In this document: piece by piece, positions 31,660 to 34,848 of the stretch
Numbering within the stretch: the first letter of the stretch is position 1
Layout: each line of letters opens with the position of its first letter
Source of the DNA: Rhodothermales bacterium
Lineage (GTDB): Bacteria; Bacteroidota; Rhodothermia; Rhodothermales; UBA10348
Direction: 5' to 3'
Length of the DNA: 34,848 nt
Assembly: GCA_024711125.1 (NCBI GenBank)
Contig: JANJTM010000066.1
Location: 1-34,848 of the forward strand
Notes under the pieces: model-generated
The model's input: the letters and a program-made list of their open reading frames with translations, nothing else
Told to the model about the DNA's origin: nothing
The model's database searches: none
Translations under genes and position numbers: made by a program

Positions 31660-32244
31660 ATGTTGCGCCGGTTGTCCGTTGCCCTTCTCCTCACCGCGGC
31701 CGCCTGCGGCCCGGGCGGTCCCACCGTTCCGCCCCTGCCCTGGGTCGTGTTCGAGACGCCTCTCGGCCCGATCACGGTCGAGATCGACACCGTGCGGGCG
31801 CCGTTGACGGCGTCGAACTTCCTGCGGTACGTGGACGAAGCGCGCTTCGACTCGGCGGCGTTCTACCGCGTGGTGACGCTGGACAACCAGCCTGACAACG
31901 ACGTGAAGATCGAGGTCATCCAGGGTGGGCTGGGCGACCGGTCCGAACGGCTGGGCCTCTCGCCGATCTCGCACGAAACGACCGACGTCACGGGCCTTCG
32001 GCATCTCGACGGCACGATCTCCATGGCCCGCATGGGCCCCGGGACGGCGTCCAGCGAGATCTTTTTCTGCATCGGGGATCAGCCGGAACTCGACTTCGGC
32101 GGTCGCCGCAACCCGGACGGGCAGGGCTTCGCGGCGTTCGGGCGGGTGGTTGCGGGGCTCGACGTGGTGCGACGAATCCAGGAGCGTCCGGCCGACGGGC
32201 AGCGGCTCGTGGAGGAGGTGCCGTTCCGGGTTCACCGCAATTAG
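31660..32244 (+). CDS. Cyclophilin-type peptidyl-prolyl isomerase lipoprotein
   Basis: A 194-residue cyclophilin that should catalyse cis-trans isomerisation at proline in the periplasm. The N-terminus (MLRRLSVALLLTAAAC) is a lipoprotein signal with Cys16. The cyclophilin core shows TPLGPITVEIDTVRAPLTASNF, FYRVV (the catalytic Arg region), IQGG, TISMAR and SSEIFFCIGDQPELD, then FAAFGRVVAGLDVVRRI. The length fits a short PpiA/PpiB-like enzyme. ATG at 31660 is preferred because it begins a clean signal peptide; upstream residues overlap the divergent gene. The gap to the amidohydrolase gene is 78 bp. Confidence 0.92.
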   Translation: MLRRLSVALLLTAAACGPGGPTVPPLPWVVFETPLGPITVEIDTVRAPLTASNFLRYVDEARFDSAAFYRVVTLDNQPDNDVKIEVIQGGLGDRSERLGLSPISHETTDVTGLRHLDGTISMARMGPGTASSEIFFCIGDQPELDFGGRRNPDGQGFAAFGRVVAGLDVVRRIQERPADGQRLVEEVPFRVHRN

Positions 32245-32421
32245 GGTTTGCACCCGCGACCGCCGATGCCAGGCCTGGCCGATGACACCCGATGCGCTCG
32301 GGACGCCGGGAGCGCGGCGGCGTACGGGACGCCTATGGGTCCCTCAACGACCCGGCTTCGCCGGGCCGGATCATGCACTATGGGCCCGGTGGAACGCATG
32401 GACCGTGGTATCGGGGGCCTT

Positions 32422-32561
32422 GGGGCCCGGAAGTGGAATCAGGGCCGTTTTTACACTTCCGCACTGGCTTTTTGGGGCCCGGAAGTGGAATCGGGGCCGT
32501 TATTCCACTTCCGCACCGCCTTTTTGGGCCCGGAAGTGGAACTGAGGCCGAAATTCCACAT
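32422..32561. repeat. Tandem 52-bp repeats, each with an inverted-repeat hairpin
   Basis: Two full units (32422-32473, 32474-32525) and a partial third (32526-32561). The two full units agree at 47 of 52 positions. Each runs GGGGCCC, left arm GGAAGTGGAAT, a ~10-nt loop with GGGCC, right arm, a spacer and TTTTT. In unit 2 the arms are a perfect 11-bp inverted repeat (32481-32491 and 32502-32512). Unit 1 has a mutated inner right arm but keeps GGAAGTG/CACTTCC. Unit 3 has a decayed right arm. The period is not a multiple of three, so a coding repeat is excluded. The T-run lies 8 nt beyond the stem, too far for a standard terminator. Confidence 0.85.
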
Positions 32562-32672
32562 CGTCTCCCTGTACGTCGGCGGCTGGAGTGCCTGGAGGGT
32601 TGGTCGCGCCGATTTCGGTCCCATTCACGGCACTCCGGATTCGCAGGCTCGCCGACGCACGGTACACCGGAA

Positions 32673-33008: not shown

Positions 33009-33926
33009 ATGGTCGCGCCCGGCGATGACGAGGACCGCGGGGTCCGTGCCGGCGCCAGGCGTCTCCTCCGGGAGCTGCTCGAGGTCTCCGTGCGCAACGA
33101 GCCGCAGCCCGGGTCGGACCGGGATGCCGAAGTGCTGCACGATTTCCGAGTGGCCCATCGGCGCGCCCGCGTACTCTTGAAGGAGTACGGAAAGGCGTTG
33201 GGAAAGCCCTCGCGGCGACTTGCCGATGCGATGCGCCGCCTCGGGCGCCGGACAGGACCCGTGCGCGACTTCGACGTCCTGGCGCAGCGGCTCGGAGCGG
33301 CGGATCCGGCCCGGCCCGGATCGGGTCCCAACCTGCTCCTCGAGGAGATCGCCGGGCGGCGCGATGCTGCCGACACCGCGTTGATCCGGTACCTGGAGTC
33401 CCCGCGGTATGCCGGCCTCGTCGCAACCTGGGAATCGCTGTGTTCCGACCCCATCGAGGCGGCGGACGACGGGAGGACCGACGCGTTCGCGCGCTGGACG
33501 CTGGACCGGATCAGTGTCCGTTTCGGAAGGCTTGCCGCCGCCTCCGGGGCGTTCGACGCGAGGACCGACGACGACGCGATCCACGCGACGCGCATCCAGG
33601 CAAAGAGGCTCCGCTACCTGCTCGAGTTCCTGGTCAGCCATCGGCCGGATTCCCGTGAACGCGTGCGACCGATCGTCGAGCGTCTCAAGCGGCTCCAGGA
33701 TCGCCTGGGGGCCTACCAGGATCTGCGTGCACACGCAGAGCTGCTGCGCGTCGTAGCCGACGACCCCGCCGCGCCGCTCGCCGCCCGCGTGGAGGCCGTG
33801 CGCCGTGCGGCCGCGCTCGATGCGAGGCGGCTTCGGACGCGGCGCGGAGTGGGGCTCGCGCTGGCACGCTTCACGGGGAGCGCCATGCAGCGCAGGATGC
33901 GTGTATTGGCGCGGACGGGAGGATGA
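33009..33926 (+). CDS. CHAD-domain protein
   Basis: A 305-residue CHAD (conserved histidine alpha-helical domain) protein. The two defining helices are visible: EVLHDFRVAHRRARVLLKEY (~41-60) and AIHATRIQAKRLRYLLEFL in the second half, both basic with conserved His and Arg. CHAD proteins bind inorganic polyphosphate and often localise to polyP granules. No CYTH or PPK gene is in the window. The start is ATG at 33009; an in-frame GTG at 33003 overlaps the previous stop as GTGA and is a fair alternative. The stop overlaps the next ATG (ATGA). Confidence 0.9.
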   Translation: MVAPGDDEDRGVRAGARRLLRELLEVSVRNEPQPGSDRDAEVLHDFRVAHRRARVLLKEYGKALGKPSRRLADAMRRLGRRTGPVRDFDVLAQRLGAADPARPGSGPNLLLEEIAGRRDAADTALIRYLESPRYAGLVATWESLCSDPIEAADDGRTDAFARWTLDRISVRFGRLAAASGAFDARTDDDAIHATRIQAKRLRYLLEFLVSHRPDSRERVRPIVERLKRLQDRLGAYQDLRAHAELLRVVADDPAAPLAARVEAVRRAAALDARRLRTRRGVGLALARFTGSAMQRRMRVLARTGG

Positions 33927-34848
33927 TCAGGCGCCGCACATCGTGCACGCTTGGCTCCGCGATACTCCTCGCCGCCTGCTTCGCCCAGACGACCTTCGCC
34001 CAACCCGACTGCCTCGGCGACGACCTCGCCCGCACGATTGCCTGCCTCGAGGCCCGCGTTGCGAACCCGGGAAACGGCTCCCGCATGGAGCGCCGGTGGG
34101 TCGAGCGCGGCCTTGCGCTCCACATCCTGGAGCGGGATTCGACGAACGTGCCGGCCCTCTCGGTCGCCGCGAAGTGGGAGCTCGACGAGCTGTTCTGGCA
34201 GGCCCAGAACACCTCGCGCTTTCGTACCCGGTACTTCGAGCGGCGCCGGAACGCGGCCGTGGAGCGTCTAAGAGCCTACCTGGACACCTGGCAGGCCGCG
34301 GCGCCCGACGACCCCACCCCGCTGCGGCAGGCGGCCCGGCTCGACCTGCTGCTCCAGGACTGGCAGGCGCTGGAAACGACCGGGGCGATCCTCGTGGAGC
34401 GATTCCCCGAGCGGCCCGACGGGCACCTGCTGCTCGGGGTCGCTGCGGCAGCCACCGGCGCGGAAGGTACCGGCGACGCGGCCTTTGCCCGTGCGCTTCA
34501 TCTCATGGAGCCGGCAGAAAGCGCTCTCTGGCTCGATCCGGCGCGCTTTGCACCGGGGTTCGATGTGCGGAAAGCGCCGGATCGAGCCGCGGGCGACGCG
34601 GCGCAGACCGAGCCGGAGCCCCGGACCGCCGAGTCGTTCTGGGCCGTGCGGGACCCCCGCCTGCTGACCCCGGAGAACGAGCGGCGCGCGGCCCACATGG
34701 CCCGCATGACCATGGCCGATCTGCTCTTCAGCGAGGACGGGCGGCAGCGGGGCTGGCTCACGCTCCAGGGCGACCTCGTCGTCCGGTACGGGCTACCGTA
34801 CGACCCGCTGGTCACGATCGCGCCCTACGGAACCCTGTCGGATGTCAC
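33923..34848 (+). CDS. GWxTD-domain secreted protein, cut at window edge
   Basis: Partial: the first 308 codons are present and the frame stays open to the edge. A signal peptide (SAILLAACFAQTTFAQ) may be type I or a lipoprotein signal (LAAC, Cys19). Residues ~35-200 are helical, TPR-like (RLDLLLQDWQALETTGAILV). Residues ~238-308 match the GWxTD domain: SFWAVRDPRLLTPENERR, then GWLT (277-280) where the family has GWxTD and RYGLP (288-292) where it has RYGPP. The Asp is Leu here. The family is common in Bacteroidota and related phyla and is of unknown function. The ATGA overlap with the CHAD gene suggests co-expression. Confidence 0.85.
   Translation, partial: MIRRRTSCTLGSAILLAACFAQTTFAQPDCLGDDLARTIACLEARVANPGNGSRMERRWVERGLALHILERDSTNVPALSVAAKWELDELFWQAQNTSRFRTRYFERRRNAAVERLRAYLDTWQAAAPDDPTPLRQAARLDLLLQDWQALETTGAILVERFPERPDGHLLLGVAAAATGAEGTGDAAFARALHLMEPAESALWLDPARFAPGFDVRKAPDRAAGDAAQTEPEPRTAESFWAVRDPRLLTPENERRAAHMARMTMADLLFSEDGRQRGWLTLQGDLVVRYGLPYDPLVTIAPYGTLSDV

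Follow-up and report, generated by a model that had tools for sequence, protein, structure and literature searches.

Tandem units of ~43 bp make up the sopC site of the F plasmid, and a dimeric protein binds the short inverted repeat in each unit. REP and BIME elements are short palindromic units with regular spacing and alternating orientation that are extragenic, dispersed and lineage-specific (PMC2817692, PMC3733652). REPs, the best-studied interspersed palindromic repeats of bacteria, have been linked to RAYT transposases, whose substrates are single-stranded hairpins. The neisserial dRS3 element (NIME type) spans 20 bp, ATTCCC(N8)GGGAAT, with arms of 6 bp, and is present in almost 700 copies and used as a phage integration target (PMC3898611); in the BOX elements of streptococci boxA and boxC end modules stand around tandem boxB modules (PMC3049150). 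The repeat family described here has a layout similar to that of REPs and persists without a RAYT-type enzyme in its own genome.

The window, which is the whole stretch of DNA analysed (34,848 nt, contig JANJTM010000066.1 of a Rhodothermales bacterium), was first described from its letters alone. This sequence-only reading had reported three tandem units of about 52 bp, the third decayed, with TTTTT between them and lying in a gene-free gap after a cyclophilin gene, all of which was borne out. A repeat search of the window located three direct copies of a 51/52-bp unit at 32420-32574, namely 32420-32471, 32472-32523 (90% identical) and 32523-32574 (63%), with a spacing of 52 and then 51 bp. 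The T5 runs lie inside linkers, at about 32469-32473 and 32521-32525, and the gap is gene-free from the end of the upstream cyclophilin gene (PF00160) at 32244 to the next candidate gene, an ORF from 32719 encoding 95 aa with no family match, which is followed by a CHAD-domain gene. A gene for a GWxTD-domain protein (TIGR04514; window 33923-34846, at the contig end) adjoins the CHAD-domain gene. A GWxTD protein and a TonB-dependent receptor would fit a Bacteroidota-like lineage, possibly Rhodothermia.

Each module has the formula GGAAGTGGAA-N12-TTCCACTTCC and is joined to a 19/20-bp T-rich linker (Table 1). Unit 2 is a perfect inverted repeat (CGGAAGTGGAAT at 32480-32491 and ATTCCACTTCCG at 32502-32513), and here the sequence-only reading was right about the perfect stem but one pair short in its length, which is 12 bp rather than 11, made up of the arm with one flanking and one inner pair. 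The single mismatch in the right arm of module 1, TTACACTTCC, is the common GTGTAA variant, and in module 3, a terminal module, the right arm TTCCACATCG is decayed and the outer base is altered as at many array ends. The arm GGAAGTGGAA with at most one mismatch occurs seven times in the window against 1.24 expected, a count reached in 0 of 100 shuffles.

Table 1. Coordinates of the window array and of composite repeat copies elsewhere in the same genome
Feature	Coordinates	Strand	Description
Linker-like partial remnant	32420..32428	+	TTGGGGCCC; ahead of first arm; first repeat copy begins here
Module 1	32429..32460	+	Left arm GGAAGTGGAA 32429-32438, loop TCAGGGCCGTTT, right arm TTACACTTCC 32451-32460
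Linker 1	32461..32480	+	20 bp, GCACTGGCTTTTTGGGGCCC, with T5 run
Module 2	32481..32512	+	Perfect palindrome GGAAGTGGAA-TCGGGGCCGTTA-TTCCACTTCC
Linker 2	32513..32531	+	19 bp, GCACCGCCTTTTTGGGCCC, with T5 run
Module 3	32532..32563	+	Left arm GGAAGTGGAA 32532-32541, loop CTGAGGCCGAAA, right arm TTCCACATCG 32554-32563
Composite repeat copy	C55:65754-66214		Loci L004, L044
Composite repeat copy	C49:135059-135457
Composite repeat copy	C72:42196-42533
Composite repeat copy	C44:26882-27198
Composite repeat copy	C7:75197-75414
Composite repeat copy	C35:16778-16981

To the 146-bp query of the window array there were 39 BLAST matches in its own genome, and a sequence model of the unit gave 130; together these matches represent about 29 loci, located on about 24 contigs, with 1-4 module copies per locus. 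A strict palindrome pattern was found at 14 places in this genome compared with 0 for the reversed control, and was absent from 59 of the 59 relatives scanned. The arrays are intergenic and stand between convergent, divergent (4) and tandem gene pairs, the few apparent overlaps with genes being ascribed to the crude ORF caller. One array is flanked by isopropylmalate dehydrogenase and LeuA-type synthase genes (leuB/leuA-type), others have genes for RadC (radC), uracil-DNA glycosylase (UDG), an amidase, symporters and glycosidases as neighbours, and no common function was apparent among the array-neighbouring genes. The orientation of the T runs relative to co-directional genes seemed skewed (about 8 of 10-11 cases), but not significantly so.

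Three examined genomes of the genus g10 (G009, G014 and G018), from the same family as the genome containing the window (G000), were the only relatives with matches to the first model, all of them weak. A model of the combined set (R2) gave 50 matches in G000, 49 in G009, 37 in G014 and 16 in G018; a genome of another family gave one weak match (E = 0.006) and the remaining 104 genomes gave none, the filters of such a many-genome model search being able to lose weak matches. Within the genomes searched, the repeat family is restricted to two genera of one family. The search of the unit against its own and related genomes had been proposed from the sequence alone and yielded further loci in both, confirming the dispersed repeat family that was among the options raised. 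A search of 84,980 species genomes for exact palindromes gave two loci elsewhere and one viral contig, about the chance number, and the viral contig was rejected as an array carrier, as it held a lone palindrome with no array. No match to the array was found in the phage and plasmid records searched.

The g10 arrays have the same layout with other arms: GTGGAA with GTGTAA, GTCGAA, GTTSAA and AGGTTSCA. Arm letters differ between arrays and change together inside an array, and the arm consensus, GGAAGTGGAA in the own genome, is RRGTNNAA. In G009 one arm position consistently separates left from right arms (GTGGAA/GTGTAA; AGGTTGCA/AGGTTCCA), a difference that breaks the stem. The same genome holds both GTGGAA-class arrays and a seven-module array (L186, 1541-1880) of a second arm class, AGGTTGCA/AGGTTCCA (AGGTTSCA), in which the left arms are variable and the right arms invariant. 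A looser pattern gave 30 single matches in G009 compared with 5 and 10 for control patterns, and tandem pairs solely in that genome. A scan for tandem palindromes spaced 49-54 bp apart, whatever their sequence, showed one array in 400 kb of G009, with none in 306 kb of G002, in 400 kb of G008 or at control spacings. In G009, entire arrays recur as blocks of 209-301 bp (loci L193, L156, L271, L269, L284 and L281); the own genome showed no such higher-order repeat.

Arrays are frequently found close to the end of a contig, in G014 (C512, C591, C545, C135, C342, C554 and C243) as well as in the own genome (C56, C27, C12 and C22). Short-read assemblies may have been broken by the arrays and the arrays undercounted, and the arrays may help to account for contig breaks in draft genomes of the group.

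The organization of the arrays was compared among 19 simple arrays of the own genome. Array starts were left arms in 15 of 18 usable cases and array ends were right arms in 19 of 19, so that whole modules stand at 34 of 37 array ends (binomial 1e-7), and array size ranged from one module (L032 and L110) up to four. Outer bases other than GG were found in 24 of 38 terminal arms versus 11 of 69 internal arms (Fisher 1e-6). Identity was higher within than between arrays for both linkers (0.86 versus 0.62) and loops (0.72 versus 0.54), a mark of tandem duplication or conversion, and locus L014 contains identical 51-bp copies. It is predicted that arrays grow and homogenize through tandem duplication of modules.

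In the own genome, pairing between arms was the same as for shuffled columns, whether the hairpin was taken to span the loop or, alternatively, the linker. The letters of the arms are conserved, and their most frequent variant has GTGTAA in place of GTGGAA, a stem-breaking change that is rarely matched in the opposite arm. Conserved letters without covariation, together with this variant, speak for each arm being a sequence motif and not half of a maintained stem. Both array strands fold better than shuffles (z -3.9 and -4.5), as any inverted-repeat array must. Across arrays and genera, 23 both-side arm changes were counted versus a shuffled mean of 9.6 (0 of 500 shuffles), in counts that ignore relatedness and in which only free positions inform, most of the units having been selected by a pattern in which several arm positions are fixed. 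This joint arm change was similar for either of two mutually exclusive pairings, a result that a single motif shared throughout an array would give. No match was found among the 4227 families of Rfam at gathering or permissive thresholds.

To describe the geometry of the arrays, every distance of 8-60 bp between arms of opposite orientation was counted, using an arm pattern built from known arms and with many of the measured arrays being related. Distances of 20/21 bp from + to - arms were found 31/13 times (44) in the own genome and 41/41 times (82) in g10, and distances of 31/32 bp from - to + arms 31/5 times (36) and 62/7 times (69), respectively. All other opposite-arm distances had <=5 cases each, and arms of the same orientation were mostly 51-52 bp apart. 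Taking 10.5 bp as one turn of the helix, these spacings are near 2, 3 and 5 turns. Changes of 1 bp are common and larger ones nearly absent, despite diverged loops, linkers and arms, and part of this tightness could stem from shared ancestry.

Evidence on the movement of the arrays was mixed with respect to the proposal, made from the sequence alone, of a mobile hairpin remnant: whole modules do occur singly and in tandem, but neither target-site duplications nor an own-genome Y1 transposase was found. Words shared from flank to flank were no longer than those between mismatched flanks, and Y1_Tnp (PF01797) was absent from G000 (99.3% complete), G009 and G014, with three in G018. No empty site was found, the cyclophilin orthologues of 10 relatives having no shared neighbours, and relatives do not preserve the order of the genes that surround the window array. 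A MITE-like composite repeat of 500-620 bp with inverted ends GGGCGTGTTCACRCTC / GAGYGTGAACACGCCC carries one hairpin array (Table 1). Some of its copies contain a tRNA-like stretch unrecognized by ARAGORN or Rfam, and a tRNA origin was rejected on these negative results. An HxlR-family regulator gene (PF01638) adjoins one array (L118, 1987-2340, on C12), similar stretches occur at C7 and C44, and an HxlR-like, apparently truncated sequence lies beside other composite elements. Because arrays ride in composites and the G009 arrays are block-duplicated, passenger spread combined with local duplication is plausible. Under such a model the arrays would reach new intergenic places as non-autonomous passengers of some enzyme.

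Taken together, these results are most consistent with a two-genus modular repeat family whose arrays are phased putative protein-binding sites, spread as passengers, and we place a rough probability of 0.6 on this reading. The module is an inverted arm pair with centres 20/21 bp apart, with a linker that puts the next arm 31/32 bp on. With spacings near 2, 3 and 5 helical turns, every arm would lie on one side of the duplex DNA, and the array would form a phased set of sites for a sequence-specific, probably dimeric, putative DNA-binding protein whose preference would differ between lineages. Geometry kept at helical-turn multiples while the letters drift suggests protein-bound duplex DNA rather than hairpins. 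An operator array for a palindrome-binding protein, another option of the sequence-only reading, comes near to this mechanism, which we infer from the fixed two- and three-turn spacing. The binding-site model accounts for neither the C run in loops nor the A/T run in linkers.

Several of the same features might also arise from neutral repeats that are functionless, generated and homogenized by replication slippage and quasi-palindrome template switching and seeded by rare recombination or as passengers of other elements. Concerted evolution within arrays, with the identical copies in L014, fits this explanation, as do the arrays carried by MITE-like composites and the duplicated array blocks of G009. 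It is nonetheless considered unlikely given that both genera keep the two- and three-turn spacing to within 1 bp despite diverged arms, loops and linkers, and that array boundaries coincide with whole modules whose terminal arms are distinct. Hairpins of the REP/BIME type, copied and dispersed as single-stranded substrates by RAYT, would be consistent with the alternating orientation, regular spacing and extragenic dispersal that are BIME traits (PMC2817692), with strand folding stronger than in shuffles, and with arms that change together between arrays, as reported for REPs and RAYTs. This origin appears improbable, as Y1_Tnp is lacking in the own genome, G009 and G014 despite their many arrays, there is no GTAG/CGTC tag, own-genome arms show no covariation beyond shuffles, and the consistent left/right difference in G009 breaks the stem.

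The remaining explanations act at the level of RNA. Weak intrinsic terminators in a chain, or an insulator, as had been suggested from the sequence, would act where the cyclophilin transcript ends and would explain a T5 run in each linker, the position downstream of a gene and folding with z below -3.8. However, the T run is about 8 nt past the stem, where an intrinsic terminator has a GC-rich stem with the T run at once, and a terminator scan found nothing at the array. With four array contexts between divergent genes, no compensatory change in the own-genome alignment and no Rfam match, this option was not upheld and is regarded as very improbable. A transcribed, tandemly encoded family of structured RNAs would fit the strong predicted folding of both strands; the Rfam result, the uncompensated own-genome arm changes and cross-array pairing evidence that is equal for two mutually exclusive hairpins leave this explanation barely credible.

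For the favoured reading of phased putative protein-binding sites, a broader and tentative extension is that alternating binding arrays are phased chromosome-wide in two genera and read by a dedicated, fast-changing protein, with sites re-lettered in concert and more than one specificity class per genome. Two candidate specificity classes, the GTGKAA and AGGTTSMA arrays, occur together in G009. Such a chromosome-wide reader protein may be a nucleoid organizer, a partition-like protein or a recombinase. If a cognate protein exists, it would be retrievable with a bait of ~100 bp, and the two arm classes of G009 would provide a ready test of specificity.

The arrays are modular interspersed palindromic repeats that form a family without a known name or a match to a known family; in the open literature searched, the only named types of such repeats were REP/BIME, BOX and NIME. 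Like REP/BIME elements, the arrays alternate in orientation, are regularly spaced and extragenic, and have arm sequences that vary between genomes. Unlike them, they carry no GTAG or CGTC tag, having outer bases that are mostly GG/CG followed by AAGTGKAA, their own genome is without a Y1/RAYT gene, and their arms are set at two fixed spacings, near two and three turns of the helix, with stem-breaking differences tolerated. Intergenic arrays of short inverted-repeat units found with longer repeat elements are shared with the neisserial NIME (dRS3/RS). The NIME unit ATTCCC(N8)GGGAAT does not describe the units here, GGAAGTGGAA-N12-TTCCACTTCC, whose arms are 10 bp long and whose loop is N12; their period is fixed at 51/52, they occupy about 29 loci, and no phage match to them was found. 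BOX elements are likewise modular and intergenic, vary in how many tandem internal modules they hold and have ends that can be told apart, and it is the description of BOX that sets the two apart, since the array ends here are the same module with outer bases changed. In contrast to a CRISPR array, which has identical repeats and unique spacers, the linkers here are themselves conserved (identity 0.62 between and 0.86 within arrays). Finally, whereas sopC is one array per plasmid, the family described here comprises about 29 small arrays spread over the genome.
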